DNA from: a virus
Strand: one strand, 5' to 3'
Virus record (IMG/VR): IMGVR_UViG_3300008216_000009
Coordinates: 31,607-95,606 of that record
Length of the DNA stretch: 64,000 bases
Made by a program: the position numbers and the translations under genes. This document shows, piece by piece, positions 7,441 to 64,000 of this stretch (positions within the stretch are counted from its first letter, which is position 1; every line of letters begins with the position of its first letter). The notes beneath the pieces were generated by a model that did no database searches, was not told where the DNA came from, and saw nothing but the letters and a program-made list of their open reading frames with translations.

Positions 7441-7478
7441 GCGTAGTTTCGCTTCGACGTGATCGAAGTGAGGAGCAT

Positions 7479-10400: not shown

Positions 10401-11129
10401 TTATCCTATGATACTCGTCTTACACCTGAGAACCAGCTAGGCGACGCTGTTTCGGGTGTTGTAGCGACTTTGCTTTCTCCCATGCTGGCAAAGAGTGGAG
10501 ACGATCCTAGTAATATAGATGTGGGTCTTATGAAAGTCCTGGTTCCCGATGGTATCGAGAAACAGACTGATTTCATGGACACCAAGAATACTCTGGTTGT
10601 TGCTGGGTGGGGGAATTATTACGTCATAGATCAAGAGGGCCACAGAATTGGTATAGAGGGAATGAGGCGAGCTTTAGAGGAATTTTTAAAGCGTCCAGAA
10701 TATGCCAATGTGAATATTTTCCATTCTGGGATACAGGTAGGTCAGATTCTTCCAGAATTCACTGATGAGCACGGTAAATTATGGAAAACTGAAGTAAGAC
10801 CTGAGGGAATGTTTGTTGTGGCTGCCATTAGAAATGATCTTGAAGTTGCTCGTAAGGCTATGAGAGAGATAATGAAAGGCACTTTACGGGGATTCAGTAT
10901 TGCGGGTAATGCTAAAGATAAAGAGTTGAAGTGTGACCATGGTAAATGCTGGACCGAGGTTACAGATATGGAAATGTATGAAGTCACCCTTTGTGTTCAG
11001 CCTATGAATCAAAATTCTTACATAACAGACATTCTTCAAATGCCGGACGCACAAGTATGCCCAGATTGCTATGAGGGTGTTCAAGTTGAGTACGATTCGA
11101 ACCTTAATATTCAGGGTGTTAGTATCTAA
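7479..11129 (+). CDS. Polyprotein: degenerate Nudix domain plus XkdF-type prohead protease
   Basis: The start is taken as ATG 7479 behind GTGAGGAGCAT, giving 1216 residues; an upstream in-frame TTG at 7437 lacks such a site. Residues 1-15 carry the recurring helix LLKHVDEMIES. Residues about 240-360 are a Nudix fold with strands, WELPGG and a Nudix helix, but the box reads G274-x5-E280-x7-R288-Q-I-A-L-L, so the metal-binding Glu residues of REUxEE are absent. The middle is acidic with a Gly-rich run and a helical segment EIDFWVLDKIS near residue 595. Residues about 1030-1200 match XkdF/S78-type prohead protease, with candidate catalytic His1082 (FHSG) and Ser1140 (GFSIAG). Expected role: head maturation protease, perhaps self-cleaving. 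Confidence 0.75.
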   Translation: MTQELLKHVDEMIESVIVSELGFFQDNNYTIDLSVKTEDGEDSFFVRRNGAVLYAGPDGAKAASQFYSQIAQVHEDDQNGADPDFATLREILEARNQHVKEALSQLGHTDLARSLSKLTFKSIDNEWHDIFFSPDATEEIIKGERVEKLIPAVIGAALGAVGQVAGTVVDAATNVEASDPDETKPKSKAPKVGGVDKSVSDNLIYTEDDRSEEAKDLESPANFDEAASKPNLIMRQELENTSEYQGVFFFIKNSFEELLFVKRTGAPYWELPGGLKKEDESLRDALKRQIALLNLKARQAKQLGSVSMGEGHVSGMIFAVSVSGQIVLPDKYDSLTWVSVGSLANVPLAPDYNIDELKDMITTSMDDPEDRLYLSTNVSNDIYKQRDITDLGDPFQSVGDNYVPPGVRGSVVQDGVRGGVQAREIGDNLKHLRNQVGLKHHEESEGVFKYPDNNPIPEGEDEDLDPGREHVEEENNPYLHKSRDGSRQSYMGLRQSYMGLRQPVNKESPVWETETDSEYVEKFDTQGWDPGHPETINDSRMQPRGIPQERLSERIEKGEDEGIGAKRTLVKVNEYSKRLIDILGDNEEIDFWVLDKISRTGSYMSDIYHHLTDSRKLDVQQKAYPFTVDRPEDMQDPISAQRKKDKLSPASEEALSSAEAGTGTQAFSSGAVVDLPESMDAEIGVQPHAVQGSGSEGVEGGGDGSIDMIPTPDASMNIDEAEKASEFDSRLRSLRKKDPLVRKDTVGSYDDHHHDRLSKVNTFESRLVELKEGGGDGGGGGSFGGDGGSGTAMTSGGTHTATYGGGGTSTAYDSSLKPKSAEVTKSDSDKEEEKESEVETIFENVAETVDSSLEKNADVYGTTEGLSQLPAPDVPELGQTKDPKKSNSIDRHRPGDSESRRRMDGRGVRNEPFPPGQEPIGDDVSNLVIAENEDTYKPAELEERAENEIVRRKFIDEDSHRIRTNDMAAEQYTNLSYDTRLTPENQLGDAVSGVVATLLSPMLAKSGDDPSNIDVGLMKVLVPDGIEKQTDFMDTKNTLVVAGWGNYYVIDQEGHRIGIEGMRRALEEFLKRPEYANVNIFHSGIQVGQILPEFTDEHGKLWKTEVRPEGMFVVAAIRNDLEVARKAMREIMKGTLRGFSIAGNAKDKELKCDHGKCWTEVTDMEMYEVTLCVQPMNQNSYITDILQMPDAQVCPDCYEGVQVEYDSNLNIQGVSI
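8938..8984 (+). repeat. 21-base tandem repeat, 2.2 copies
   Basis: Units at 8938-8958 and 8959-8979 differ at one base, followed by five bases of a third. They encode RQSYMGL twice then RQ inside the disordered middle of the protease polyprotein. Confidence 0.85.
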
Positions 11130-18656: not shown

Positions 18657-21600
18657 ATGCCTGTTGATCTGAGACAAATATCATTTTATCCGCTAAAGCG
18701 GCAATATATCGTTAGTGATTCTGAGCCTGGAATAGAGGTCGTTCAGAGCGGAAGCGGTGCCTATTTAAAATGCACTGATGAGAATGATGCGGTTGTTTTC
18801 CAAGTAGCGAATGATGGATTAATCTCATCTGCTGCTGGAGCGGCTGAGTATTCGACACTCCAGTCCTCCTCTGGAACTCCAATCACACTGGTTGCTCAGG
18901 GATCCAATCAGGATGTGCGGTTTATGCACACCGCCAACAGCACTGCCAATGTGATGATGTTCCTTGACGGGGCCACCAAGCATATGAGTATAGGTGGTGC
19001 CCATGACTCTACTCCTGACAGTAGGCTCCATGTTTTTGGTGCTACCGCAGGAAGTGTTACAGCAGTAACAGATACAATCATAACTGCTGAGAATGATGAT
19101 AATGCTTTTATCAGCCTCTTAGCTCCAACCTCTAGCGGAATTCTATTCGGAGATGTGGCTGATGCGGATATAGGCCGTATCACCTACACCCATTCTGATA
19201 ATGCTTTAAATCTTTATGTATCTGCTTCTCAACAGTTTGCTTATACCGACGCTACTTTGCAGTTCAAAAAGGCTACGAGTCTTACAACCAGTGCTGGTGC
19301 ATTAACTATTGCCCCAGTATCGGGTGCTCATTTAGATCTTACTCTGGGTGGTGCGGGTGATCTTAGGGTAAACACAAGTCAACTCTATGTGGACACGAGT
19401 GCTGCCAGGGTTGGTGTGAATACGGCTACTCCTTCTGCTGGGTTAGAGGTAGTGGTTTCTGAATCTGCTACTGTCCCTGCTCTTATGGTTCAGAATTCTT
19501 TTAATGCTGCTTCTAATCAGGTAGCAGTTTTTAGGGGGTCTAATAGAGGCACGGCTGCAGATAACGATAGTTCTTACATCACTTATGAGATGGAAGATTC
19601 GGCTGGAAATATGGTGGAAGTTGGTCGCCAGATATGGCAGATCAATGATGTAACCAGCAATACGAAAGATTCTAAGTTCACCTGGCAGGTTATGGTGAAC
19701 AATACTTTAACTGACATGTTGGAGATTAGTTCTTCAGCCGCTGCTGTACCAACTGCCACGTTTGCCAGCGGTGATGCCATATTCAATGACAATGTTTCTA
19801 TTAGATTAGGGACTGCTGGTGTAGAGGCCGATCTTTCTTCCAATGGGACCGATGTTAAGTGGGAATTTGCTGCTACTGCTGATCTTCTCATTGGTAGAGC
19901 TAGTTCACCTGCTCCTGATGGGCTTGTACACATATGGGCAGCGACTGCTGGTTCGGTGCAAGCTCCTACGGATTCATTGCTCACTCTTGAGAAAGATGAC
20001 AATGCATACATTACTTTTTTGGCTCCTACTGTCAGCGGTATTAATTTTGGCGATGCTGCCGATAATAATGTTGGTAGTATTACTTATACTCATTCAAGCA
20101 ATACTTTAAATACCACCATCAATGCCGCTTCCCAGTTAAATCATACTGATGGGGCATTTGCCTTTGCCAAAGCCACAACGGTCAGTACTTCTTCTGGAAC
20201 TCTGACTATAAATGCATTCACCGCTGGCGGTGCCATAAATTTTGCTAGTCAGGCAATGACTAGTGTAGATATAAACTCTGGGACTATTGGCGGGGTTACG
20301 ATTGATGGTACTTCTACGGCTACGGCTGATGTTACTTTCAATGACAATGTAAAAGTGACATTAGGCACTGGTGGAGATGTAGATGTCTACTATGACGCTA
20401 CTGATATGGTCATCAATACCCGGGTTGCTGGCACTGGAGATTTAGTAACACACAGTCAGATTGTCTGGGGTACTGGAGTAGCTGTAACAGCCGCTGACTA
20501 TTCCATAGGCAGGGATGCTGATGGTACGAATCAGATGCATCTTAATGTGCCCTCCAGTTCTGGATGGGAATTTTCGATAAATGACACTGCCAAGCTCACT
20601 TATGCTACTGGTGCATTTAACTTTACTGAAGCTACTTCGATTACCACTTCTGCAGGTCAATTGACTATTGATGGTGCTGGTGGGGTTGTTATTAATGAGG
20701 ACGGAGATGATGAGGATTTTCGCATTGAGACTAATAGCAATGCCAATACCTTAGTTATAGATGCCAACACATTTGGTGGTACGGGTTCGATTGGACTAGG
20801 AAATGCAGTAGTAAATACTGCTTACCTACGAATAGCTCCCATAGCGATTACATCGACTGCTGACCAGCCGTATGCTGCGGTACGAATCGCTCCTGTTGGT
20901 GTAACGGTTCCTAGTGGAACATCCTCAGTAGTCTCTAGCCTTACTGTAGTAGAGCCAGTTATATCTGCCACAGGCACGGTGACGGTTGCTGCTACAGTTT
21001 ATATTCAGAATGCACCTACTGAGGGTACTAATGATTATGCTCTCTTTGTAGATGCTGGGGCTACTCGACTTGATGGAACCTTAACCGCTAGTGGCGGCGG
21101 AGCACTAACTGGAACATGGTCTGATCTTGGAACTGTAAGCACCATAGATATAAATGGTGGGTCTATAGATGGGATTACATTAGGGACTAATGCTGCTGTT
21201 ACTCAAGCTGTAATTGATGATATTGACCTAAACGGCAAGGTCATCACCATGACAGGCAGTAGCAGCGACACGGCAGTATTCACTGCTGGCACTAACGGCA
21301 CGTTAAGTATAGTAACCACTGACGCTGCCGCTGCCGCCGCAAATATTCAGATCACTGCTGATGGCACAGTGGACATAGATTCGGCTGGGGTACTCACATT
21401 AGATTCTGGAGCAGCTATTAATTTAGAACCTGCAGCAGGGTCAGCTATTCTTCTTGACGGGACAATCAGCATTGATGGCGGTGCAGTGACAGGGGTGGTA
21501 AGTATTTTCCAAACCGATGTAAAAATTGGTGAGGATGATGAGACCAAGATAGATTTTGAGACTGTTAACACTATTAATTTCTATGTAAACAATGCTAAAG

Positions 21601-24600
21601 ATTTAGTTTTATCTGAAAATGCCTTAACTCCCGGCACAAGTGATGGCACTGCTTTGGGAACTACGTCTCTGATGTGGTCTGACTTATTCCTAGCAAGTGG
21701 GAGTGTAGTCAACTTCAATAATGGAGATGTAACGCTCACTCATTCAGCTAATACTCTTACCTTAGCGGGGGGGACACTAGCTGCTGCCGCCATAACAGGC
21801 ACCACGATTGATGCTTCGACTGACTTTACGATTGGAAGTACGGTTATTACAGACGATGTAATAACTTTCACCCCAAGCTCCAGCGATACCGTAACACTGA
21901 CCTCTTCTACAAATGGAGCCTTTTCACTTGTAACAGTTGATGACGCTGCGGCAGCAGCTAACATTCAGATTACCGCCGATGGGACAGTAGATATAGATTC
22001 TGCAGGAGTGCTGACCTTAGATTCTGGTGCCGCTATTAATTTAGAGCCAGCGGGGGGATCTGCCATTCTGCTTGATGGGACAATCAGCGTTGACGCTGGG
22101 GTAGTAACAGGCGCAACAAGCATTACATCCACAGCATTTCTAGGGACTCTTGATGGAGTTGTGGGAGGGAATACTCCCGCTGCAATTACAGGCACAGCCA
22201 TTATAGGCACAACAATAGATGCCACTACCGATTTTACTATCGGTTCTCTTGTTATTACTGATGATTCAATAGTAATGACTCCAACTGCCAGTGATACAGT
22301 AACTATTGCTGGTGCCGCTAATGGAGCCTTCTCTATTGTTACTGTAGATGCTGGTGCTGCAGCGGCTAATATTCAGATTACTGCCGATGGAACGGTAGAT
22401 ATAGATTCTGCGGGTGTTCTCACTCTGGATTCAGGAGCGGCGATCAATCTAGAACCTGCGGCAGGGTCTGCGATCCTTTTGGATGGAACTATAAGTGTCG
22501 ATGCGGGGGTGGTCACTAATGCGACTAGTATTACTTCAACAGATTTTGTTGGAAATATAACTGGAACCGTTCTTACTGCGACTCAAAACAGTATTACCAC
22601 CATGACGGGTTTGGTTACCACTGGAGCTTTGAATGCTGGTTCTATCACCTCTGGATTCACTTCTATAGATGTAGGATCAGGAGCCATAACCACAACTGGC
22701 ACCGTTACGACTGGTGCGCTTGCCATAAATGGCAACATTACTACAGCCGCTGCTCGTACCTGGACTCTGTTGGATAACGATGCCACTGCTCTTAGTTTTG
22801 ATGCTTCTGGTAAAACAGGTATGCTCGTTTTTGATACTAGAAATGGTTCTGAACGAGTAACTCTGAGTGGCAATGTGTTGGTATCTGGAGACTTTGAGGT
22901 AGCTGGTTCTAGTACAACAGTCAGTACGACTGTCATAGTTGCCGATCCATTAGTAGCTCTGGCAACGACTAACACTGGCAATGCAGTTGATATTGGATTT
23001 TTTGGTAGGTATCGCACAAATGGTACAAACCTCTACACAGGGTTTGTTTGGGATGCAAACGTTTCCAAGTACATTCTTTTCCATGGAAATCAGGCTGCAC
23101 CTGACACAACTGTAAACACAGGTGGAACAGGGTACACCGCTTCTACACTAGTTCTTGGAACTCTTGAGTCATCGAATATTGCTGCCCATACCTTAACGGG
23201 TAAGCTGACTGCTGGTTCTGTAGAGATAGAAGGATCAGGTTTCGATATAAATGGCGGAGATATGACTGGTGTCACTATCTCTGGAGCTTTGACATGGTCT
23301 GCTGCCCAGGATTTAAACAATCAGGCGTTAACTAATATCAATGTGGATTCGGGTGCTATAGATGGAGTAACTCTAGGCACTAACTCTGCAATAACTAATG
23401 CAGTTATTGATGATGTGGCTATCAATGGCAAGGTAATCACTATGACAGGTAGTGCCAGTGATACTGCGACCATGACCGCAGCCACTAACGGTGCTTTTTC
23501 TCTCGTTACGGTTGATGCTGCTGCCGCTGCTGCAAATATCCAAATCACGGCAGACGGAACAGTGGATATAGATTCCGCTGGAGCATTAACACTGGATTCT
23601 GGGGCTGCGATTAATCTGGAACCTGCCTCTGGGTCTGTAATCTTGTTGGACGGCACAATAAGTGTTGATGCTGGTGTAGTAACGGGAGTTACGGCGTTTA
23701 CCTCCGCTACGATTGATGCTACTACTGATTTTACGATTGGTTCCCTTATTATTACTGACGATCAGATACAAATGACTCCAACTGCCAGCGATACAATAAC
23801 TATTGCTGGCGCAGCTAATGGAGCCTTTTCTATTGTTACCGTCGATGACGCAGCGGCTGCTGCCAACATTCAGATCACTGCTGATGGTACGGTAGACATT
23901 GATTCAGCGGGAGTCCTGACATTAGACTCAGGTGCTGCTATCAATATAGAACCTGCGGGTGGGTCCGCTATTTTACTTGATGGCACTATTAGTATAGATG
24001 CGGGAGTGGTGACCGGGGCGACCAGCATCACTTCTACGGCATTTCTAGGTACTCTTGATGGCGTTATAGGAGGAAACACCCCTGCGGCGATTACAGGTAC
24101 AACCATTGATGCAACTACTGACTTTACTATAGGTAGTACGGTTATTACTGACGATGTAATCACATTTACTCCAAGTTCTAGTGACACTGTAACTATGACC
24201 TCCAGTACGAATGGAGCCTTTTCCTTAGTTACAGTTGACAATGCCGCTGCTGCTGCAAATATCCAAATTACAGCGGATGGAACTGTAGATATAGACTCAG
24301 CGGGTGTTCTCACTCTGGATTCAGGAGCGGCTATTAACATAGAACCTGCTGGTGGTTCTGCCATTCTGCTCGACGGAACTATCAGTATTGATGCAGGTGT
24401 GGTTATTGGAGCAACCAGCATCACTTCCACTAATTTTGTAGGAACTGTCACTACAGCTACTCAAAATAGTATTACCACTATGACGGGCTTGGTTACTACA
24501 GGAGCCTTGAACTCAGGTTCAATAGCCAGTGGGTTTGGGGCAATAGATATTGGTTCGGATAACCTAACTGCCACAGGCACGATATCGCTGGGAGCGACCA

Positions 24601-25853
24601 GTTTTAACGATCAGAACCTGACAAATGTAGGGGGCATAGCATTAGATACGATTACTTCTGATGCTGGTGCTGGAATCACTATTACGCCTACTACGGATAC
24701 TTTCTTTTCTAATGGTACTGGTGTGGTAATAGGACATACGGCTCAGTTGACTGTTTCCGCTGCAGACGGTGCTACTCCCCGTCAACCAGAGTTTCAGATA
24801 GCTGGAACTGTAGGCACTATAGATGGGGCAGCATTGATTACCACCTTCAATACGAATGGGGCGGGTATTGGGAACGCATCGACATTGAATTTCGCTAAGA
24901 GTAGAGGCAGTTTTGGTACTGTTGGCACGGCAGTGGGGGTTACTGATTCTCTTGGTACGATAGTTGCATATGGTGATGATGGTACTGATATGTATTCACC
25001 TGCCGCAGCCATTCATTTTGAGGTTGATGGCACAGTTGGAACGGGTGTAATGCCAGGGAAAATAGCGTTCTACACGACTCCAGCTAGTTCAGAAGCTTTA
25101 GCAGAGAGAGTGCGTATTGATGCTCTTGGTCGTGTCTTTATAGGGGACACTACTATTGGCACTTCGGTAGATATGGATACAGCGGGATTGGTCATAAATC
25201 AAGCAGGTGGGGATAAGCATATATTGGCTCTTAAATCATCCGATGTGGGTCATGGTATGACCACCGTTGCCGAGACTGATACTTATGGTTTTATTGAGAA
25301 GAGCGATACTATGGGTGGTTTACGTATAGAAGGTCTTAAAGCTTCTGGTGGCACTCATTCTGGATTATCCATGAGGGGTGTCATAGATGGTACGCAAAAC
25401 AGCACTAAAGGGACTGCTGGGACTGGCACTATAACTTTAGATACTGCCATTAGGAATGGAACTGGGGTAACAGCAGTAGGAGCTAACGGTAATATATTTT
25501 CTATTCGAAATAATGGAGCGACTAGGTTCATATTTGATGCTGAAGGCGATTTTTATTCAGATGCCAGTATCAATGCTGATTTCTACGATGACTACAATGA
25601 CCCTGTGCTAGTAAGAGATTTGGATTTAGCCATTACGCAGCGGTTTGATCAGTGGACTCAGTACAACAGGGCAGATGTGGAGAGAGCCAAGTTAGTTCAC
25701 TTCGATGAGAAGGATCAGCCCTTCGTTAACTGGACTAGGGTATGGAAGCTCCACAATGGTGCAATCTGGCAATTATATGAGAAAATGGAGAGGTTAGAAG
25801 AAGAGAATAAGTCCTTGAAAGAAAATCTCTCAAAGATGTTGACGGAGGGTTAA
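18657..25853 (+). CDS. Giant tail fibre with six-fold internal repeat
   Basis: A 2398-residue protein rich in Thr, Ser, Ala, Gly, Asp and Ile. A short N-terminal domain (VDLRQISFYPLK...) likely attaches to the tail. Residues about 880-1920 contain six copies of a module holding NIQITADGTVDIDSAG, LTLDSGAAIN and ILLDGTIS, plus two copies of a TATQNSITTMTGLVTTGALN segment. A more globular region follows (about 2000-2290), and the end is a coiled coil (LYEKMERLEEENKSLKENL) that probably trimerises. Fibre proteins with these phrases are typical of environmental tailed phages. It binds the host surface; the receptor is unknown. Confidence 0.75.
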   Translation: MPVDLRQISFYPLKRQYIVSDSEPGIEVVQSGSGAYLKCTDENDAVVFQVANDGLISSAAGAAEYSTLQSSSGTPITLVAQGSNQDVRFMHTANSTANVMMFLDGATKHMSIGGAHDSTPDSRLHVFGATAGSVTAVTDTIITAENDDNAFISLLAPTSSGILFGDVADADIGRITYTHSDNALNLYVSASQQFAYTDATLQFKKATSLTTSAGALTIAPVSGAHLDLTLGGAGDLRVNTSQLYVDTSAARVGVNTATPSAGLEVVVSESATVPALMVQNSFNAASNQVAVFRGSNRGTAADNDSSYITYEMEDSAGNMVEVGRQIWQINDVTSNTKDSKFTWQVMVNNTLTDMLEISSSAAAVPTATFASGDAIFNDNVSIRLGTAGVEADLSSNGTDVKWEFAATADLLIGRASSPAPDGLVHIWAATAGSVQAPTDSLLTLEKDDNAYITFLAPTVSGINFGDAADNNVGSITYTHSSNTLNTTINAASQLNHTDGAFAFAKATTVSTSSGTLTINAFTAGGAINFASQAMTSVDINSGTIGGVTIDGTSTATADVTFNDNVKVTLGTGGDVDVYYDATDMVINTRVAGTGDLVTHSQIVWGTGVAVTAADYSIGRDADGTNQMHLNVPSSSGWEFSINDTAKLTYATGAFNFTEATSITTSAGQLTIDGAGGVVINEDGDDEDFRIETNSNANTLVIDANTFGGTGSIGLGNAVVNTAYLRIAPIAITSTADQPYAAVRIAPVGVTVPSGTSSVVSSLTVVEPVISATGTVTVAATVYIQNAPTEGTNDYALFVDAGATRLDGTLTASGGGALTGTWSDLGTVSTIDINGGSIDGITLGTNAAVTQAVIDDIDLNGKVITMTGSSSDTAVFTAGTNGTLSIVTTDAAAAAANIQITADGTVDIDSAGVLTLDSGAAINLEPAAGSAILLDGTISIDGGAVTGVVSIFQTDVKIGEDDETKIDFETVNTINFYVNNAKDLVLSENALTPGTSDGTALGTTSLMWSDLFLASGSVVNFNNGDVTLTHSANTLTLAGGTLAAAAITGTTIDASTDFTIGSTVITDDVITFTPSSSDTVTLTSSTNGAFSLVTVDDAAAAANIQITADGTVDIDSAGVLTLDSGAAINLEPAGGSAILLDGTISVDAGVVTGATSITSTAFLGTLDGVVGGNTPAAITGTAIIGTTIDATTDFTIGSLVITDDSIVMTPTASDTVTIAGAANGAFSIVTVDAGAAAANIQITADGTVDIDSAGVLTLDSGAAINLEPAAGSAILLDGTISVDAGVVTNATSITSTDFVGNITGTVLTATQNSITTMTGLVTTGALNAGSITSGFTSIDVGSGAITTTGTVTTGALAINGNITTAAARTWTLLDNDATALSFDASGKTGMLVFDTRNGSERVTLSGNVLVSGDFEVAGSSTTVSTTVIVADPLVALATTNTGNAVDIGFFGRYRTNGTNLYTGFVWDANVSKYILFHGNQAAPDTTVNTGGTGYTASTLVLGTLESSNIAAHTLTGKLTAGSVEIEGSGFDINGGDMTGVTISGALTWSAAQDLNNQALTNINVDSGAIDGVTLGTNSAITNAVIDDVAINGKVITMTGSASDTATMTAATNGAFSLVTVDAAAAAANIQITADGTVDIDSAGALTLDSGAAINLEPASGSVILLDGTISVDAGVVTGVTAFTSATIDATTDFTIGSLIITDDQIQMTPTASDTITIAGAANGAFSIVTVDDAAAAANIQITADGTVDIDSAGVLTLDSGAAINIEPAGGSAILLDGTISIDAGVVTGATSITSTAFLGTLDGVIGGNTPAAITGTTIDATTDFTIGSTVITDDVITFTPSSSDTVTMTSSTNGAFSLVTVDNAAAAANIQITADGTVDIDSAGVLTLDSGAAINIEPAGGSAILLDGTISIDAGVVIGATSITSTNFVGTVTTATQNSITTMTGLVTTGALNSGSIASGFGAIDIGSDNLTATGTISLGATSFNDQNLTNVGGIALDTITSDAGAGITITPTTDTFFSNGTGVVIGHTAQLTVSAADGATPRQPEFQIAGTVGTIDGAALITTFNTNGAGIGNASTLNFAKSRGSFGTVGTAVGVTDSLGTIVAYGDDGTDMYSPAAAIHFEVDGTVGTGVMPGKIAFYTTPASSEALAERVRIDALGRVFIGDTTIGTSVDMDTAGLVINQAGGDKHILALKSSDVGHGMTTVAETDTYGFIEKSDTMGGLRIEGLKASGGTHSGLSMRGVIDGTQNSTKGTAGTGTITLDTAIRNGTGVTAVGANGNIFSIRNNGATRFIFDAEGDFYSDASINADFYDDYNDPVLVRDLDLAITQRFDQWTQYNRADVERAKLVHFDEKDQPFVNWTRVWKLHNGAIWQLYEKMERLEEENKSLKENLSKMLTEG
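21322..24395 (+). repeat. Six protein-level repeats with scrambled codons
   Basis: Copies near 21322-21482, 21940-22100, 22345-22509, 23512-23673, 23838-24003 and 24230-24395. The encoded module of about 50 residues is almost invariant. Comparing 46 codons of copies 1 and 2 by eye, about 22 differ and only one changes the residue (Ala to Gly). Confidence 0.85.
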
Positions 25854-28800
25854 ATGGGAATCTCTCTATCAGGTTTAACTGAATCATCTACTGGAAATCT
25901 GACCATCTCTGCTGGATCAGGTAATGATGTCCTGATTGGGAATGGTTCAACTCAGATTTTTATAGATGGCGGCACTGATACTTTAGGTATTGGTGGCACT
26001 GCGGTATCAGGATCACGCCTTAACATCGAGACTGGGGCGGTTGCCCTAGATTTTATTACTTCTACTGGCACGGCGGTCAATGTGATCGCTGACACTGTCA
26101 ATGATACTAGCGGTGCAGCTACGCTTGCTATTGTTCCTACTGTCCAGATAGGGGTAATGACATATACCTCTACCAACTCTATGACTTATACCGACACAGC
26201 TTCTTTATATATTGCTGGGATTCCCGCTGCTTCCACTAATGTAACGTTCACGAATGCTGCATATGCGCTCTGGGTTGATGCTGGAGCAGTTAGATTTGAT
26301 GATCGCACATTCTGGATCGGTGGCATCGCTTACGAATTTCCCGCAGACAATGGCAATGCAAATGAGATGTTGTTAACTGATGGGAGCGGGAACCTTTCCT
26401 GGTCGTCAGTAGCCAGTGCTTCCGTGGCTACTACGGTAACGGTTACAGACAATGAGGACACAAATGAGAACAATCTGATTCCATTTGTAGCCAACGCAGC
26501 TACTTCTACTGGCAATCATGGACTGGAGATGGATGGAGATTTCACCTACAGTCCCAATACAGGAAGGCTTACTGCTACCCAGCTATCTGGAACCCTGCAA
26601 ACTGCGGCTCAAGGTAATGTTACTAGTCTTGGAACTTTGACTGGGTTGGGTTTATCGGGCGACATTTCACTTGCTGCTGCTGCTATCGTTTGGACGAGTG
26701 GCGCAACTACCGTTGGTAGTGAATATAGTATTCAGCAAGACTCTGCTGGGACTGACCATCTTCAGTTTAATGTGCCAAGTGGTAAGGGATTCAAGTTCTC
26801 CATAAATGCTGTTGAAGAGGTTATTTGGTCTACAGGGGCACTTGCTTTTCAGCAAGCAACGACTCTCAGTACAACGGCAGGTAACTTAACTCTTTCTGCT
26901 GCTACTGGAGCGGATGTACTGATTGGTGATAACGCTACGATTTTATATGTGGATGGTGGTACAGGTACTGTAGGTATTGGAGCAGCAGCCACTGCGATCA
27001 ATCAGGTAAAGATTGCAAGTGCACTTGAAACTGCAGACAGCAATATGCTCTACGCCTATAGGAGTTACACGGACGCTACCAATAACACCATTCAGGGCAT
27101 TAGGGTAGAGCAACAGAGAGGTAGAACCAGTGCAGCCTTTACAGGCAGTTCTCTTGGTATAAAAGTCACCAATCAGTTAGCGGATGGCAACAGGCAAGCA
27201 TGGACTAGAGCGGTTGGTGGTTTAGTTGGCGTTGATGTGTTGTTGGGTTCTGGTGGCGCAAACGCTACAGGTACTGTGACGGCAGCGGTAGGATTTAACT
27301 CCTATATTACGATGGCTGGCTATGGTGCTAATGCGACTACCACCAATTATATAGGCTTTAGGGACGCTGGCTTGGGTAATGGGACAACTACCAATAGGTA
27401 TGGTTTTTATGTAGCCGAAACTTCTGGAACAGTTACCAACAATTACGGACTTTATGTAGAAGAATTAACTCAAGGTAGCTCCCTAGACTATTCTATCTAT
27501 ACCGCTGGTGCTACGCCAAGCTATTTTGGTGGCAATGTAACTCTAGCTGGCAGTAGTAATAACAACACTGTCTTAGATATACAGGTTCCCGGTACTGGTG
27601 ATCCGACAATAACCTTTACTGGTGCTGGTACTTCAGTTGATTGGCATATAGGTGTTGATAACAGTCATGCTAGCGAGGGTTTATATCTTGGTAAGGGAAC
27701 TGCGGTTGGAACTGATGCTTATATAAGACTTGATGGAAGATACTCTGCTGGGAGTTTCCTAATAGGGTTGGCCCATGACCCTGCCGCTATCACTTTAGCT
27801 GAAGCATCTAATTCTCGTCTATATATGACATACATTGCGGGAAATACCGTAAGGTTCACTGGCGGCACACAGATGACTTCAGTAGACGGGTCTACTCTTT
27901 ATGTAGATGCACCCAGTCTTGTAAGTGGAAATAATGCTGCCATAACAATAGATGCATATAACACTATCTATACAAAAACTCCTCGTGAAAATGATGGTTA
28001 CGTTGCCCTCACTACTGCCGCAGCAATAAGAATTTCTGATGGCGGCAATGCTAGTCATCCCGCTGCAAATAACATTGGTTTATATGTAGAAAGTTTAACT
28101 ACTGGTACTAATGATTATAGTGTTTATACTGCTGGTACTACACCAAGTAATTTTGGTGGGGCCATCCACGCTGACGGTGCTATAACTGGTGCTAGTTCAT
28201 TGGATATTGCTGGTAGGGCTGCTATCGGTTCTGGCGCAAGCGTTGGAGCAACTACTGGGCTGCATGTCAACGAGCAACAGACAGACCCTGCTGGCCTTGT
28301 AGGAACCATCTCGTACATTATTCCCACACTGTCTTCTGGAGCGAGTGCGAATATCTTTCAAGGCTTCCGTGTAGTCAACGATCTACGTGGTAACCAGAAC
28401 TATACAGAGACAGAGAATGGGGCGCAGACAGGGAATGCTGGCATCAGCATAGATATGATTAATCGGGCTACTGCCACTGTCACTGAAATGTTCGGAGTGA
28501 CTGCCCATATCAGGAAATTTTCAACTGGAGCGGTGACAACCGCAGCAGCTTACAAGGTCGGAACTTGGGGAAACTTCAACTCAACTAATGCCATTACTAC
28601 TTTAAGCGGATTGCATGTTACCAACCCGACTGCGACAGGAGGGATAACTACCCTCTATGGTATCAAGATAGATGACCTGACGACTGCTGGTACGGAGTGG
28701 TCAGTCTACACTGGTTCAGCCCCAAGTTATTTTGGTGGGTCGGTTACTGCAACTAGCACGATTTCCCATACCGGGGCATCCCACAACCACGAACTCGATG

Positions 28801-30425
28801 GTAGCGGCGGCTCTGTCTCGCATCTAATCTCAAACACCGGGACGGCTGCGAATGATGTGGCGTATCTGGAGTTAAAGACCGCAGGGGTTACTCACGGGAC
28901 ATATACGGCTCCACATGTTCGCTTTACCACTGGCGCAGGGGCATCACCACATAATTGGTACACAGGCACTGACCTGACGCAGTACGAAGCTGACACGTTC
29001 CATATCGGGACTGGCACTACCGTTGGGAGCAATGCGAGGGTTTCCATCAGTAGCCAGAATGGTCGTAATGTACCGGGGTTCCGAATAGACCCAACAGACT
29101 GGACTTCTAGCGGGACGACCAGCGATGTGGGTGGGTACACGTTCAGAACTCTGGCGCATAACATCACTTGGAGCAGCGACCCAGGTGATAACAATGGGGC
29201 GAAGTGGCAGATTAACTCGATGGCGGGCGGGACGATGGTGAACAGTTCCTCCGCTCAGACGTTTGGTTCGGCGATGGGAGCGACTACACTTCACGTCACC
29301 CCGCCTTCGGCTGGTTCTAACATCACGTTCACCCACGCTTCGGGTATCAATATCGCCAACGTCGCATCGGCAGGGACGACCACGAATCTGTACGGCATAT
29401 ATATTGATGACCTGAGTGGCGGTGCCACTAACTATGCTATTTATACCGCTGGGAGTGATGCCGTTAGTCTTGGTGGTGTCGTAACTATTCGTGGTAGTCA
29501 ATCGTACCTTGAAGTTTTGGAGGCTCCTCAAAATAATGGTGTAACCATAAAAGGGAACGCTAATCCAGCCTTGCTTATTCAAGAAGACAGTCAAGAACAG
29601 TGGATACTCTATGGTGCTGGTAGTGGGTTATATTTGAAGCGGGATGGGACTATACAGTGGGCTTTCTTTGCAGATGGTGACATGCACCCCTACGGTCATA
29701 TAAGGATGAAAAATAGTAAAGCTATTTATGATGTAGGAGCTAGTGGTAACAACTGGACGGCAAATGCTCTGACTATTACAGGTACATATAACGGTGAACA
29801 GAGTCTCCAGGTTTGGAATACGGATAATGATGTGTCACACACAACCTCTCATTCACTGCTGTATCTGGTGACTTTTGGGTCAGGCGACTCTAAAATTAAA
29901 TACGCCACTGGGGTCAATTTTTCACATGGAATTGACCATAGCGAAAGCCGTTGGGTGCTGTCTCGTGGTCATGCTCTTGGCAGCACTGATGTCATGCGTG
30001 TTACTACTGCCGGGGCAACTACATTCGACTCCGTAGGTTCAGAGTTTACCCCTGACTATGTTTGTGATAGTTGTGGCAGGGCCGAGATAGAATCCTTTGA
30101 GTGCTGTGGCACAGTAGCATGGCATGATGATGTTCTGGCCCTCAGAGAGATGAAACTTAGCCAATCAGGTATTGACCATATGGCTAAACTTGGTGTCCTT
30201 GAGATTGATGGCCCCGATGATGCAGACCCCGGCTGGACGGGCATCAACTATCAGAAGGCGCAGTACTTCACTTGGGCTGGCATGTACCAGAACCGCCAGC
30301 GGATGGATGCTCAGTACGATGAACACGAAAGTCGTTTTGGTGAAAAAATACGGAAATTAGAAACCCTTCTCAAAAAGATGCTGGGTGAAAAAGAATATAC
30401 CTTACTCATGGATCAGATTGAGTAG
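25854..30425 (+). CDS. Second giant tail fibre with zinc-like C-terminal domain
   Basis: Starts at the base after the stop of the first fibre. 1523 residues. Four copies of a module ending in (L/I)Y(V/I)(E/D)xL...(S/A)(V/I)YT(A/G) and SYFGG occur at about residues 540-570, 740-770, 940-970 and 1180-1210. The C-terminal domain (about 1400-1523) begins with CDSCG...CC, a possible zinc site, continues with aromatic-rich sequence and ends in a coiled coil. Part of the gene (28700-29400) has clearly higher G+C than the rest. The N-terminus resembles modules of the first fibre, so the two may assemble together. Confidence 0.7.
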   Translation: MGISLSGLTESSTGNLTISAGSGNDVLIGNGSTQIFIDGGTDTLGIGGTAVSGSRLNIETGAVALDFITSTGTAVNVIADTVNDTSGAATLAIVPTVQIGVMTYTSTNSMTYTDTASLYIAGIPAASTNVTFTNAAYALWVDAGAVRFDDRTFWIGGIAYEFPADNGNANEMLLTDGSGNLSWSSVASASVATTVTVTDNEDTNENNLIPFVANAATSTGNHGLEMDGDFTYSPNTGRLTATQLSGTLQTAAQGNVTSLGTLTGLGLSGDISLAAAAIVWTSGATTVGSEYSIQQDSAGTDHLQFNVPSGKGFKFSINAVEEVIWSTGALAFQQATTLSTTAGNLTLSAATGADVLIGDNATILYVDGGTGTVGIGAAATAINQVKIASALETADSNMLYAYRSYTDATNNTIQGIRVEQQRGRTSAAFTGSSLGIKVTNQLADGNRQAWTRAVGGLVGVDVLLGSGGANATGTVTAAVGFNSYITMAGYGANATTTNYIGFRDAGLGNGTTTNRYGFYVAETSGTVTNNYGLYVEELTQGSSLDYSIYTAGATPSYFGGNVTLAGSSNNNTVLDIQVPGTGDPTITFTGAGTSVDWHIGVDNSHASEGLYLGKGTAVGTDAYIRLDGRYSAGSFLIGLAHDPAAITLAEASNSRLYMTYIAGNTVRFTGGTQMTSVDGSTLYVDAPSLVSGNNAAITIDAYNTIYTKTPRENDGYVALTTAAAIRISDGGNASHPAANNIGLYVESLTTGTNDYSVYTAGTTPSNFGGAIHADGAITGASSLDIAGRAAIGSGASVGATTGLHVNEQQTDPAGLVGTISYIIPTLSSGASANIFQGFRVVNDLRGNQNYTETENGAQTGNAGISIDMINRATATVTEMFGVTAHIRKFSTGAVTTAAAYKVGTWGNFNSTNAITTLSGLHVTNPTATGGITTLYGIKIDDLTTAGTEWSVYTGSAPSYFGGSVTATSTISHTGASHNHELDGSGGSVSHLISNTGTAANDVAYLELKTAGVTHGTYTAPHVRFTTGAGASPHNWYTGTDLTQYEADTFHIGTGTTVGSNARVSISSQNGRNVPGFRIDPTDWTSSGTTSDVGGYTFRTLAHNITWSSDPGDNNGAKWQINSMAGGTMVNSSSAQTFGSAMGATTLHVTPPSAGSNITFTHASGINIANVASAGTTTNLYGIYIDDLSGGATNYAIYTAGSDAVSLGGVVTIRGSQSYLEVLEAPQNNGVTIKGNANPALLIQEDSQEQWILYGAGSGLYLKRDGTIQWAFFADGDMHPYGHIRMKNSKAIYDVGASGNNWTANALTITGTYNGEQSLQVWNTDNDVSHTTSHSLLYLVTFGSGDSKIKYATGVNFSHGIDHSESRWVLSRGHALGSTDVMRVTTAGATTFDSVGSEFTPDYVCDSCGRAEIESFECCGTVAWHDDVLALREMKLSQSGIDHMAKLGVLEIDGPDDADPGWTGINYQKAQYFTWAGMYQNRQRMDAQYDEHESRFGEKIRKLETLLKKMLGEKEYTLLMDQIE
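28700..29400 (+). other. High-G+C island inside second fibre gene
   Basis: Counted by hand, 38 of 60 bases are G+C in 29221-29280 and 35 of 60 in 29281-29340, against 25 of 60 in 27781-27840 of the same gene. Reading frame is uninterrupted. This looks like an exchanged segment. Confidence 0.6.
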
Positions 30426-58478: not shown

Positions 58479-60788
58479 ATGACTGTTGGTACTACTGGCA
58501 ATTTTACGGAGAATGCGGTTTCGGTATTGGAGAAAAGATATCTTCTTAAAGACGGTGAGGAGACGGAGTCTCCAGAGAAAATGTTTTCACGTGTATCAAA
58601 ATGTCTATCTGAGGTAGAGAGTAATTATCGTGTATCAGGCAAGGAGATACGTGAATTAGAGAAGTCATTCTTCGAATTAATGTGGAGTTTGGATTTTGTG
58701 CCGAACTCCCCTACGTTGATGAACGCTGGTACAGGCCAAGGTACTTTGAGTGCTTGCTATGTTTTGGACATAGATGATTCCATGGAGGGCATCACTACTA
58801 CTATCAAGGATCAGGCTTTTATTGAAAAGTTTGGTGGTGGAGTTGGGTTTGCTTTGAGCGGCATTCGGCCTAAAGGTAGACCAATTACTACCACCCAGGG
58901 GGCTGCTTGTGGACCCATAGCCGTTCTTCGTGTTCTTTCTGAAGTAGGCAATCTTATCACCCAGGGCGGTAAACGTGCTGGTGCCCATATGGCTATCATG
59001 AGTGTTTACCATCCAGATATAGAAGAGTTTATAACTTGTAAGAATGTTGAAGGCCGTATAGATAATTTCAACATATCCGTTGGGGCTGATTCGAATTTCA
59101 TGGAAGCAGTGAAGAATGATCAATATATAAACTTTACCTGGCCTCTAGATAAGAATAGATATTATGAGGATCAGCTTGATGCTGATCGTAAACAACCGGG
59201 AAAATCTATGAAGGCTCGTGATTTATTCAACAAGATTGTTTCTGGTGCCTGGAAAAATGGAGAACCGGGCATGGTCTGGTTAGATAGGATTAACGAAGAC
59301 AATACTACTCCACAGATTGGCAGAATAAATGCCACTAATCCTTGTGGGGAGCAGCCTCTTTTATCTGGGGAATCTTGCAACTTAGGGAGTATTAATTTAG
59401 GAAATTTCTATTTAGAAAATGAGGGAGGTTCTTATGGTTTTGATAGTAGTAGATTCGATGAAACTGTAAAGCTCAGTGTTCGTCTACTAGATAATGTGGT
59501 TGATGCTAATAATCATCCCACCGATAAGACTCGTGAGATGAACAAGCTTACTCGAAAGATAGGTCTGGGAGTTATGGGGTGGGCTGATTTACTTACTAAG
59601 TTGGGAATTCCATATGATTCAGAAGAGGCTCTTGAACTCGGAAATTTGATTGCTAGCAATCTTAAAGATACTGCTGACAAGGAAAGTTCTCGTTTGGGTA
59701 AATTAAAGGGCAATTTCCCCGCTTTTGATGAATCTACACTGAATAAGAAGAATGGGGGCAAATGGGATTATATGAGAAATGCCTGGAGGCTTTCCATTGC
59801 CCCTACTGGAACCATAAGTATGATTGCTGATGCTTCATCAGGTATAGAGCCTCATTTTTCTCTTTCCTATAAGAAGCACAATATGTCTTCTCAGCTTGAA
59901 AATACAGAGTTATATTATATAAATAAATATTTATTAGATTATGTACCTGACGGGTTGGATGTAGATAAATATCTTGGATCGGGTAAGGCATTGATTGATT
60001 TTGTTCCAAATGATAGAAAAAATCATTTTCGCACTTCTAATGATATTACTCCTGAATGGCATGTAAAAATGCAGTCAATTTGGCAGCATCATGTTGATAG
60101 TGGGATCTCCAAGACTATAAATATGCCTTTTGAGTCCTCTGAGGAGGACGTAGACAAGGCGTATAGATTAGCTTGGTCTTCTGGGTGTAAGGGCATCACT
60201 GTCTACCGAAATGGATCTAGACAGAAAGAGGTACTTGTATCTACAGAGCTTAATATAGGTGCGTCGGATACAGATGGGCTTTTGCCTATTCAAGTATCGG
60301 TTAATTTTGATAGACCTGAGGTTTTGGATGGTCAGACTTGGAAAGTACCTACAGGGCATGGAAATATGTACGTCAATTTAAGTTTCCATGAGAATAGACT
60401 TGTGGAGTTATTCGCTAATGTAGGGAAGAGTGGGGCCAGCACAAATGCACAGATAGAGGCTTTGGGTAGAGTAATCTCTACGGCGTTACAGCATGGTGTA
60501 CCTGCCCCTGATTTAGCTAAGCAGTTGAGAGGAATTAATTCAGATAAACCTGTATATCATAAAGGCAGATTGATACGATCCACGCCTGACGCAATTGCTT
60601 GGGTACTTGATCAGGTGTCTGATAAGGTTCAAAGCAGCACTGATGTTCAACATAGTTTCCAAGAGAGTGTAGAGCCTATTTTTATGTCGGAGGATAGGGT
60701 GGAGTGTCCAGATTGCGATAGCGATTCTATGGTGCAGGAAGAAGGTTGCATGAAATGCTATTCATGTGGATATTCTGCTTGTAATTGA
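58479..60788 (+). CDS. nrdJ: Class II (adenosylcobalamin-dependent) ribonucleotide reductase
   Basis: A 769-residue single-chain reductase converting ribonucleotides to deoxyribonucleotides with a B12 cofactor. Landmarks: FVPNSPTLMNAG, SACYVLDI (first redox Cys), FGGGVGF, INATNPCGEQPL (radical Cys and Glu), and IAPTGTISMIADAS. Residues about 605-675 are a TSCPD-type domain found at the end of class II enzymes. The C-terminus has CPDCDS and CYSCGYSAC, a zinc ribbon that also carries redox cysteines. AAAGGAGAGGG precedes the ATG. A redoxin at 61432 is the likely electron donor. Confidence 0.9.
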   Translation: MTVGTTGNFTENAVSVLEKRYLLKDGEETESPEKMFSRVSKCLSEVESNYRVSGKEIRELEKSFFELMWSLDFVPNSPTLMNAGTGQGTLSACYVLDIDDSMEGITTTIKDQAFIEKFGGGVGFALSGIRPKGRPITTTQGAACGPIAVLRVLSEVGNLITQGGKRAGAHMAIMSVYHPDIEEFITCKNVEGRIDNFNISVGADSNFMEAVKNDQYINFTWPLDKNRYYEDQLDADRKQPGKSMKARDLFNKIVSGAWKNGEPGMVWLDRINEDNTTPQIGRINATNPCGEQPLLSGESCNLGSINLGNFYLENEGGSYGFDSSRFDETVKLSVRLLDNVVDANNHPTDKTREMNKLTRKIGLGVMGWADLLTKLGIPYDSEEALELGNLIASNLKDTADKESSRLGKLKGNFPAFDESTLNKKNGGKWDYMRNAWRLSIAPTGTISMIADASSGIEPHFSLSYKKHNMSSQLENTELYYINKYLLDYVPDGLDVDKYLGSGKALIDFVPNDRKNHFRTSNDITPEWHVKMQSIWQHHVDSGISKTINMPFESSEEDVDKAYRLAWSSGCKGITVYRNGSRQKEVLVSTELNIGASDTDGLLPIQVSVNFDRPEVLDGQTWKVPTGHGNMYVNLSFHENRLVELFANVGKSGASTNAQIEALGRVISTALQHGVPAPDLAKQLRGINSDKPVYHKGRLIRSTPDAIAWVLDQVSDKVQSSTDVQHSFQESVEPIFMSEDRVECPDCDSDSMVQEEGCMKCYSCGYSACN

Positions 60789-61018: not shown

Positions 61019-61432
61019 ATGGGATTACTCAGTTCTATAACTAAACTTTTTCAGAAAGATCCCCCGGTAAGTGAGTGTTGTGTGGATGGGGTATGCGTCT
61101 GTTCGTCTGATGGAGATGATCTGGTTTCAGATGTTACTGTAGCTACCACCACTGCTACCTCGGCGGGTGTTGTTACGATTTCTACAGATACTGATGTTCC
61201 TACTTCCACATCATCTACGCCCAGTACTGTAGAGTTTACGCCCCAATCTGTTGCTTCTGCTGATGAAATAAACATAGCACTGGAGACGGCTGCTGAGGCC
61301 GATAGGGAAGCAGCAGAGAATTATACTCCAACTCCTCCACCTGCTGCTCCACCAAAGAAGAAGAGAGCTAATGCTAAAAAAGCCAGTTCAAAATTGAATC
61401 GTAAATCAACTACTAGAAAGAAGAAGAGTTGA
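61019..61432 (+). CDS. Cys-rich N-terminus and Lys-rich tail protein
   Basis: A 137-residue protein between the reductase and the redoxin. Residues 20-29 hold ECCVDGVCVC, a tight cluster of four Cys that could bind metal or be redox active. A Thr/Ser/Val-rich linker follows, and the tail (about 110-137) is almost all Lys, Arg, Ala and Ser, as in DNA- or RNA-binding tails. The stop overlaps the next start (TGATG). No family recognised. Confidence 0.5.
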   Translation: MGLLSSITKLFQKDPPVSECCVDGVCVCSSDGDDLVSDVTVATTTATSAGVVTISTDTDVPTSTSSTPSTVEFTPQSVASADEINIALETAAEADREAAENYTPTPPPAAPPKKKRANAKKASSKLNRKSTTRKKKS

Positions 61433-61665
61433 TGGTAGAGATATATACAAGTATGGGTTGAGGTCCCTGCCACATGACGAAAGCGTGGCTTTCGGGCAAG
61501 GGAATCTCTTTTACTGAATTTAACATTTCTGTGGATATGGATGCTGGTGCACGTCTGCGAGATTTGGGGTACAGGTCAACACCAGTAGTTCGCATAGGAA
61601 ATGAGTTTATTGTTGGCTACAGTCCCCAAAAACTTGAGGCTGCTTGCAATACATATGGGCTATGA
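61432..61665 (+). CDS. NrdH/glutaredoxin-like redoxin with in-frame TGA at active site
   Basis: Reading from ATG 61432 (overlapping the previous stop as TGATG) gives MVEIYTSMG, then TGA at 61459-61461, then GPCH and a full redoxin fold: helix, FTEFNIS strand, STPVV with the cis-Pro, and GYSPQKLEAA. If TGA is read as selenocysteine, the product is 77 residues with a U-G-P-C active site where Cys-x-x-Cys is expected. The next in-frame ATG (61474) would give 63 residues without the first active-site residue. It follows a class II ribonucleotide reductase, whose usual donor is such a redoxin. It could also be a broken gene or a sequence error. Confidence 0.6.
61464..61503 (+). promoter_or_regulatory. 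SECIS-like hairpin directly after the TGA codon
   Basis: Lower stem: 61464-61471 pairs with 61495-61503, eight pairs with A61499 bulged. Six bases (61472-61477) bulge on the 5' side. Upper stem: CGAAAG (61478-61483) with CTTTCG (61489-61494), six pairs. Loop CGTGG (61484-61488) has G at its second base, and 22 bases separate TGA from the loop. As I recall the bacterial SECIS model (upper stem 4-16 pairs, loop 3-14 bases, G in the first two loop bases, loop 16-37 bases after UGA), all conditions are met. Confidence 0.5.
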
Positions 61666-64000
61666 CTCAAGAAAAATATAGACTATCTGAGATTCTGACC
61701 CTTCTTGCCTCTACAGAGTATCTATATAAGCAGGGGATAACTTCTCACGTCCCCCCAGAAAAACGCTACTACCACCCTGAAGGGAAACATACAGGACCCA
61801 GGGGTGGTCGTTTTTCTATTATTGGGGTAGAGACAGATCCTCATGGAAATCCACTTGGTCAGCCCGTTCCCACTCTGGCTCCGGGCATGGAGAATGAAAG
61901 TGTACGGGCCTGGATAGAGAGGGATTCCGAAGCTCAGCATGTTCTAAACACCCTATCTCAGTACGGCGATCCCTATGTGGTCGGTGGGGGCGTTAGAGAT
62001 GCATTACTCGGAGTACCAAGTAAAGACGTAGATATTGAAGTTTATGGTTTGACCATCGATGAGCTATCAGACATTGTCCAAAAGGATTTGGGGGGCAAGC
62101 AGAATCAGGTAGGCAAGATCTACGGTGTATTCAAAGTTGGGGATTTTGATATCTCCCTACCTAGGACTGAGACTAAGGTTGGAGATAAGCATACCGATTT
62201 TGATGTGGAGCCTAACCCTAATTTATCTCCAGAATTAGCGGCTAGACGTAGAGATTTTACGATCAATGCGTTGATGTACGATTATAAAAATGACAAAGTG
62301 TTGGATTTTTTTGGGGGCATACAGGATTTAGAAGCGAAACGTATCAAACATGTAAGCCCGGAAACCTTTGTTGAGGATCCACTCCGTGTTTACAGGGCTG
62401 CACAGTTTGCTTCTCGGTTTGATTTTTCTATAGATCCATCTACCCAGGAACTGGCTCGTTCGATGGATTTGTCTGAGATATCTAATGAGCGGGTTTTTGG
62501 GGAATTCGAAAAGTTATTATTGAAGTCCCCTACCCCATCTACAGGTATACAGGCACTGGATGATATGGGAGTGCTGGATACCCAGTTCTCAGAAATCTCT
62601 GCACTGAAGGATACTCACCAACGTAGTGATTACCACGCTGAAGGTGATGTATTTATTCACACTAAGATGACTCTGGATAAAGCAGCAGAGATTATCCAAC
62701 GTTTTCCAGATGAAAAAGATAAAACCATTATCATGCTGGCTGCGTTATGTCATGACCTGGGTAAGCCTGAGACCACTACCTCAGATGGTAGGGCTATCGG
62801 TCATGAGGCAGCGGGTGTTCCCATAACAGAGGAATTCCTGGGCAAGTTAACTAATGACAGGGACATCTTAGCCACAGTTCCCTCTCTAGTTGAGAATCAC
62901 CTCAAGCCTCTTCAATATCATCGAGACGGGGCTTCAGATGCCGCTTTCAGGCGATTAATCAATAAGCATGGGACTGAGTACCTAAATCTTCTTTCTGCTG
63001 TGTCTGAGGCCGATGCAAGTGGAAGATTAGTTAAAAATCCTGATGGTTCGATGACTGAGCATGGAAATGAGGAGAATGTTTGGTTCCGGGATCGAATTAA
63101 GCAGGTTTCTGAGGCTGGTGGATTAAAAGAGGGGAAGATAGCTCCCCTTCTAACAGGCAATGATCTGAAGGGTCTTGGCTTTAAAGAAGGGCGTGAGCTT
63201 GGAGACATCCTTCGTGATGTTCAAGGGCAGCAGGAAGAGGGAGAGATAGCTTCTGCTGATGAAGCTTTGGATTACGTTAGAAATAAGTATCAATTTGCTA
63301 CAGAGCATTTATCTAAACAGGGAATAACTCCGTCCCAAGAGTGGACTTCAGGATTTGTTCCACCTGAAAAACGTTTCTACCATATGGAAGGCACCCATAC
63401 GGGTCCTAGAGGCGGCAGATTTTCTATCATAGGTACAGAAGTAAATGAACATGGTGATTCCTTAGGTCAACTTTCACAGGCACAACCTCCTGGCCCTCAT
63501 GATATAAGCGAACTTCCGATGCCCCCTCAGCAGGGTAACATCCTTCCACAGCCGGAAGATGCTGTTATTTCTTCAGAAGCAGAAGAACGAGAGTGGATTG
63601 AAGATAATATTGAGTATGATTGGAGTATGGCTGATGAGGGAGAGGAAGTTGCTCGTGTTATATGGGGGTCAAAGGCTGGAGATACTTTAGAAGTATATGA
63701 TTTAGACAGTGTGGGATATGCAGATGGGCCATCCGGGCTTAGAGGCATACATGTAGGTGATCCAGATTTTTGGAGACAGCAGTTACAAGATGATTATGGA
63801 TTAGATGCTGCTGACGCACAGACCATAAAAATACGTACTGAGGAGGGAGATGCGTATTTACCTGATCAGCAATATAACATACCTCCCGAAGTTGGAGAGG
63901 CTGGAGAGGCAAACGTATTAGTCACAAAACGTACTCAGCTAGAGTACGGTAAAGATTGGGTGTTTGAGGGGGAGAGTTTTGAGCCTAAGCCTCAACAGGC
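61662..64000 (+). CDS. CCA-adding enzyme embedded in larger fusion protein, 3' end outside window
   Basis: ATG 61662 overlaps the redoxin stop (ATGA); the frame is open to the window end (779 complete codons). Residues 1-16 resemble the recurring head-operon helix (LSEILTLLAS). Residues 17-67 are the first copy of a module with PPEKRYYH and HTGPRGGRFSIIG. Residues about 95-330 are a tRNA nucleotidyltransferase: VVGGGVRDALLG, KDVDIEVYG (metal-binding Asp pair), RRRDFTINALMYD and EDPLRVYRAAQFASRF. An HD domain follows (IHTKMTL, CHDLGKPE with H364, GHEAAG), as in E. coli Cca. Residues 546-603 repeat the module, then an acidic region of unknown type runs off the end. The enzyme would add or repair CCA ends of tRNA. 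Confidence 0.75.
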   Translation, partial: MTQEKYRLSEILTLLASTEYLYKQGITSHVPPEKRYYHPEGKHTGPRGGRFSIIGVETDPHGNPLGQPVPTLAPGMENESVRAWIERDSEAQHVLNTLSQYGDPYVVGGGVRDALLGVPSKDVDIEVYGLTIDELSDIVQKDLGGKQNQVGKIYGVFKVGDFDISLPRTETKVGDKHTDFDVEPNPNLSPELAARRRDFTINALMYDYKNDKVLDFFGGIQDLEAKRIKHVSPETFVEDPLRVYRAAQFASRFDFSIDPSTQELARSMDLSEISNERVFGEFEKLLLKSPTPSTGIQALDDMGVLDTQFSEISALKDTHQRSDYHAEGDVFIHTKMTLDKAAEIIQRFPDEKDKTIIMLAALCHDLGKPETTTSDGRAIGHEAAGVPITEEFLGKLTNDRDILATVPSLVENHLKPLQYHRDGASDAAFRRLINKHGTEYLNLLSAVSEADASGRLVKNPDGSMTEHGNEENVWFRDRIKQVSEAGGLKEGKIAPLLTGNDLKGLGFKEGRELGDILRDVQGQQEEGEIASADEALDYVRNKYQFATEHLSKQGITPSQEWTSGFVPPEKRFYHMEGTHTGPRGGRFSIIGTEVNEHGDSLGQLSQAQPPGPHDISELPMPPQQGNILPQPEDAVISSEAEEREWIEDNIEYDWSMADEGEEVARVIWGSKAGDTLEVYDLDSVGYADGPSGLRGIHVGDPDFWRQQLQDDYGLDAADAQTIKIRTEEGDAYLPDQQYNIPPEVGEAGEANVLVTKRTQLEYGKDWVFEGESFEPKPQQ
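61710..61862 (+). repeat. Module copy 1 flanking the CCA enzyme
   Basis: Encodes TE(Y/H)L...KQGIT, PPEKR(Y/F)YH, EG, HTGPRGGRFSIIG and HG..LGQ. The matching copy lies at 63297-63470; the enzyme domains lie between the two. Confidence 0.85.
63297..63470 (+). repeat. Module copy 2 flanking the CCA enzyme
   Basis: Same landmarks as the copy at 61710 with a few extra residues before PPEKR. DNA identity is only moderate, so the duplication is not recent. Confidence 0.85.

Follow-up and report, generated by a model that had tools for sequence, protein, structure and literature searches.

NrdH-redoxins such as those of E. coli (1h75), M. tuberculosis (4hs1) and C. glutamicum (4fiw) are proteins of 70-80 residues with a thioredoxin fold, a spacing of two residues in the active site and an association with ribonucleotide reductase, in their case of class Ib. 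Glutaredoxins with a UxxC active site, in which U is selenocysteine (Sec), are recognised as a family of bacterial selenoproteins (PMC9312934, PMC13188914). Clostridium cGrx1 (PDB 7c10/7c12) is a natural Sec form (PMC13188914, PMC9312934); it is a cellular protein, reported to reduce the selenoprotein MsrA, and has no phage link. Ten Sec glutaredoxins (UXXC) were described from the Sargasso Sea in 2005 (PMC1088965; GOS, PMC2398784). These were never assigned to phages, the words 'phage' and 'virus' being absent from the 2005 paper (PMC1088965), and phages and viruses also go unmentioned in reviews of 2022 and 2026. NCBIfam holds several UXX-star families (NF041212, NF041211, NF047338, NF041114) that are glutaredoxin-like and named (seleno)proteins. 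A marine study of 2021 reported that 41.1% of marine class II ribonucleotide reductases are viral, and that few or no viral members occur in the other families examined, selenoproteins included (PMC9402790).

The gene analysed here lies in a window of 64,000 nucleotides that forms the right-hand part of a marine virus record 95.6 kb long; the record belongs to a tailed phage, as judged by its SU10-like capsid protein. It very probably encodes a phage selenoprotein, a redoxin of the NrdH/glutaredoxin type with the active site U-G-P-C, in which Sec would be inserted by the host and which is likely to feed the phage reductase NrdJ. Among eukaryotic viruses, the poxvirus glutathione peroxidase is a selenoprotein made with host Sec machinery. 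It is comparable as a viral redox protein that depends on that machinery, although it is a different enzyme and its eukaryotic SECIS lies in the 3' UTR. We know of no phage selenoprotein, and the literature searched contained no earlier report of one; most subscription papers were outside its scope and such a report may exist. What would be new is the phage-borne, reductase-linked Sec redoxin lineage; bacterial and Sargasso Sea Sec glutaredoxins were known already. The latter resemble this family in being marine, metagenomic and equipped with SECIS-like hairpins, and may include members of it.

An nrdH-like gene with an in-frame UGA

The frame opens with an ATG at 61432 and closes with a stop at 61663-61665, and read-through of a single TGA (61459-61461) gives a protein of 77 residues (61432-61662; Table 1). 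An earlier note on this DNA had placed that TGA at the first active-site Cys of a complete NrdH/glutaredoxin-like frame, with a start and a stop that overlap the neighbouring genes, and both sequence and frame are as it described. The protein, MVEIYTSMG-U-GPCHMTKAWLSGKGISFTEFNISVDMDAGARLRDLGYRSTPVVRIGNEFIVGYSPQKLEAACNTYGL, begins with MVEIYTSMG-U-GPCHMTKAW, so that U takes the position of the family's first catalytic Cys in an active site UGPC. The start shares one base with the preceding stop (TGATG), the stop overlaps the start of the next gene (ATGA), and most relatives carry Shine-Dalgarno-like sequences before the start.

Table 1. Features of the nrdH-like locus, in window coordinates
Feature	Position	Strand	Basis or remark
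Class II (B12-dependent) ribonucleotide reductase NrdJ, likely partner	58479..60788	+	TIGR02504, same-strand linkage
137-residue protein upstream of nrdH	61019..61432	+	stop overlaps nrdH start; no Pfam match
nrdH-like gene with in-frame UGA	61432..61665	+	Pfam Glutaredoxin, phrog_22, AlphaFold, TM-scores
UGA codon at first active-site Cys position, putatively read as Sec	61459..61461	+	TGA in 41 homologues, Cys in sisters
SECIS-like element, approximate extent (lower stem and apical hairpin)	61464..61507	+	predicted fold only
Apical hairpin CGAAAGC-GUG-GCUUUCG of SECIS-like element	61478..61494	+	loop G at 61485; folding, codon shuffles, covariation
Gene for CCA-adding enzyme/poly(A) polymerase head with HD domain	61662..63998	+	start overlaps nrdH stop; runs off window

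The read-through protein covers the whole Pfam Glutaredoxin model (E 1.5e-14) and also matches the phrog_22 thioredoxin domain. Its AlphaFold model has a mean pLDDT of 97.6, and the structures that Foldseek ranks highest for that model are crystal structures of NrdH-redoxins (TM-scores 0.83-0.88, 28-32% identity). The best PDB match by sequence, also among the best by fold, is cGrx1, with 35-37% identity over the aligned fold and an active site that reads CPHC in the solved Cys form where the phage protein has UGPC. Unlike the known NrdH-redoxins, the phage form would have Sec in place of the first active-site Cys, its linked reductase is of class II, and it scores below the NCBIfam cut-off for NrdH (TIGR02194; 60.0 bits against 85.75). 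A YruB-type NCBIfam model also falls below its cut-off (71.2 against 88.55), and general glutaredoxin models are among the further matches. With scores under the cut-offs, we class the protein as NrdH-like only. It differs from the UXX-star families in the same way, all scores lying below the curated cut-offs (best 38.2 against 66).

The upstream gene (11074-11672 in L135, the closest relative with a whole nrdH gene) encodes a low-complexity protein with a basic C-terminus and short Cys-rich motifs (ECCVDGVCVC; CACGGSCTCQ). The downstream protein (from 11902 in L135) carries a repeated motif, PPEKRYYHPEGKHTGPRGGRFSIIG, which occurs twice in the window protein and is found in L135 too.

Linkage to a class II ribonucleotide reductase

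The reductase upstream of the nrdH-like gene belongs to class II, scoring 621.7 bits against TIGR02504 where the cut-off is 399.95, and the end of the NrdJ coding match is separated from the nrdH TGA by 673 nt. This arrangement recurs: where the flanks of a Sec locus are long enough, NrdJ nearly always lies on the same strand as nrdH, 0.24-2.5 kb upstream of it, and it also adjoins the close Cys-type forms of nrdH. Because of this recurrent same-strand linkage and the class of the reductase, the donation of electrons to the phage NrdJ is the most likely job of the redoxin.

It is also conceivable, though rather unlikely, that the main job of the selenoprotein is not to feed a reductase, and that it serves for example in thiol protection of phage or host proteins or in redox sensing. 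The matches to general glutaredoxin models would suit such a role, as would one clade (L227, L228, L233-L236) that has a Sec nrdH and no detectable reductase in the available DNA, 36 kb in the longest member; in L227 the Sec nrdH comes after a DNA polymerase. The recurrent linkage to NrdJ in nearly all other loci argues against it, and so do the NrdH-type fold and a C-terminal GY/F-x-P motif. A class II reductase in need of such a donor had been proposed as the partner. Its class and recurrent proximity stand, and the partnership, given the L227 clade, is likely rather than proven. The polymerase gene of L227 (929-3292), in the Sec-nrdH clade nearest the window's, encodes DNA polymerase A with a fused uracil-DNA glycosylase domain.

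Sec-type and Cys-type relatives

Relatives were sought by a search of viral contigs that was based on the reductase and hence blind to the TGA, the loci then being read through TGA in all frames. Ten distinct Sec-type genes, whose TGA falls at this same codon, and four Cys-type nrdH-like genes were obtained in this way from marine viral contigs. We also scanned viral contigs and 84,980 bacterial and archaeal genomes for the DNA motif UGPCxx[TA]KxW written with TGA. True homologues made up 47 of the 48 matches in viral contigs, and none of the 32 matches in the cellular genomes, a negative result that applies to the UGPC sub-family and not to all Sec glutaredoxins because the motif is strict. 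Another pattern, ATGGGNTGAGGNCCNTGYCA, gave chance matches in viral contigs, except for the window's own lineage. A profile search enlarged the family to 41 distinct Sec-type proteins (counting those of at least 60 residues), which reach down to about 40-50% identity with the window protein. The earlier note had asked whether homologues carry Cys or a TGA with a hairpin, and the answer is TGA with hairpin or Cys without: the Cys-type sisters have the active sites CAPC, CSPC and CVPC. In INPHARED, the best homologues listed were below 60% identity, the five examined were Cys-type, and a DNA match was absent.

In a tree built on 74 columns, which is poorly resolved and in which a sequence taken to be that of E. 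coli NrdH served as outgroup, the Sec state shows strong clustering and can be accounted for by about four changes. Cys-type sisters sit among the Sec-type branches, and thus an exchange of Sec and Cys, in one direction or the other, seems to have occurred during the history of the family. These related phages offer a natural comparison of Sec with Cys forms.

The hairpin and the reading of the UGA

The RNA 3' of the TGA folds better than most dinucleotide shuffles of it (z -2.86; 3 of 200 shuffles were as good). Its apical hairpin may alternatively be drawn with a five-base loop, CGUGG, which begins 22 nt after the TGA and has G in second position; this is the SECIS-like structure that had been reported from the sequence. 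We compared the hairpins with random redraws of synonymous codons, using each contig's own codon usage, and counted those that were better than 95% of redraws (p<0.05). The window's hairpin passed (p 0.006). In all, 36 of the 41 Sec genes passed and the remaining 5 lay above the threshold, whereas none of the 8 Cys genes passed. By this test, the hairpin is maintained through synonymous-codon choice.

Most members have CAACCAA-GUC-UUGGUUG after the UGA, where the loop G is base 21 counted from that codon; in the window's clade, which has the sequence given in Table 1, it is base 24. Across the family, a hairpin whose loop starts with G is placed 20-24 nt after the TGA. One outer pair covaries: among the 32 distinct sequences of the main register, 15 have C-G and 13 have U-A there, and the 6 of the window's register include 4 with U-A and 2 with C-G. 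The inner pairs say little because most hardly vary. The apical stem is clearly conserved in most members, and the lower stem predicted for the window poorly so. Conservation of the apical part only is expected of a short element, and falls short of proof.

These results suggest how the codon would be read. During infection, host SelB loaded with Sec-tRNA(Sec) would bind the hairpin just 3' of the UGA, and Sec would then be inserted at that codon. The resulting Sec redoxin would most likely pass electrons to the phage B12-dependent reductase for dNTP synthesis. Each sequence-level prediction of the selenoprotein interpretation was tested and borne out.

A different decoding of the TGA is very improbable, whether by a code in which TGA means Trp, Gly or Cys or by a suppressor tRNA, even though a suppressor that inserts Cys would also suit a TGA at a Cys position. 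TGA is the stop of 8 of the 38 large ORFs of the window, in keeping with its earlier description as a normal stop in neighbouring genes, and so it is not globally reassigned; the window contains no second conserved TGA in a sense frame. It also contains no tRNA gene, and the only gene at the site of the record that weakly matches tRNA-Sec is a tRNA-Tyr(gta). A SECIS-typical hairpin that is kept in the Sec forms and missing from the Cys forms also speaks against such a decoding. Every other aligned TGA of the window that was considered as a sign of an additional selenoprotein fell in a shadow frame of a known gene.

Still less credible is that translation ends at the TGA and re-initiates at an ATG close by (61474), which would yield a shorter protein lacking U and leave the hairpin a regulatory function. 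The window and many relatives do have an ATG within five codons of the TGA. However, about nine distinct Sec-type members do without it (L172, L097, L163, L152, L129, L085, L112, L101, L140), the residues G, P and C between TGA and ATG are conserved, like those that precede the TGA, and the product would be devoid of the catalytic site and the first strand.

The identical TGA is present in three other IMG/VR assemblies, which show 99.93-99.99% identity to the window over as much as 10.9 kb and differ from it by a few substitutions, all away from the TGA; an error in one assembly is thereby excluded. Between the window and L135, whose protein is 78% identical, dN is 0.14 and dS 1.18 after the TGA (dN/dS about 0.12), and the median dN/dS over 178 Sec pairs is 0.24. 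Frame-breaking changes had been named as a possible sign against the gene, and no TAA, TAG or frameshift follows the TGA in the relatives; judged by these ratios, the frame beyond the TGA is under purifying selection. The TGA as a true stop, in a decaying pseudogene or through a sequencing error, is how standard gene callers would have it, ending the frame at residue 9, and is refuted by a TGA common to four assemblies and 41 divergent homologues together with the purifying selection downstream.

Sec machinery and possible hosts

A dependence on the Sel machinery of the host had been foreseen, and the phage records agree with it. None of 46 phage records had a match to selB or a tRNA-Sec gene; many of these records are fragments, and the longest, at 105 kb, represents the window's own lineage. 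In four phage records the tRNA-Sec model was weakly matched, each time by a tRNA-Tyr(gta) gene with a long variable arm (G000:C1:10247-10330, outside the window, and in G002, G022 and G028). The host would therefore have to supply SelA, SelB, SelD and tRNA-Sec, and the phage presumably borrows this machinery.

Reductases of Dehalococcoidia share up to 52% identity with that of the window, other classes having been compared in less depth, and three Dehalococcoidia genomes (G145, G186, G251) contain both SelB and tRNA-Sec(tca). Sec decoding and a comparable reductase thus occur together in some Dehalococcoidia, which is only a lead and not host evidence. A Syntrophorhabdus reductase with an apparent internal TGA turned out to be an ordinary gene end.

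In a wider sense, we lean towards the view that marine tailed phages possess a phage-restricted lineage of Sec redoxins tied to a B12-dependent reductase, whose replication would need selenium (and cobalamin) from the host and whose host range would be confined to Sec-decoding bacteria. If true, this would be the first selenoprotein family in bacteriophages, as far as the literature searched goes, and a recurrent one instead of a single oddity. It would tie a trace element and a costly host decoding system to viral nucleotide synthesis. It also predicts Sec-decoding hosts for these uncultured phages, and the gene could serve as a marker in host prediction. Phage annotation pipelines miss Sec nrdH genes because the frame is stopped after nine residues.

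Other features of the window

Two very long, structural-looking proteins of 2398 and 1523 residues are encoded at 18657-30425, the first of which has many near-identical internal repeats. Near the capsid gene, at 7437-11129, a protein of 1230 residues weakly matches both a NUDIX domain and a prohead protease (S78).
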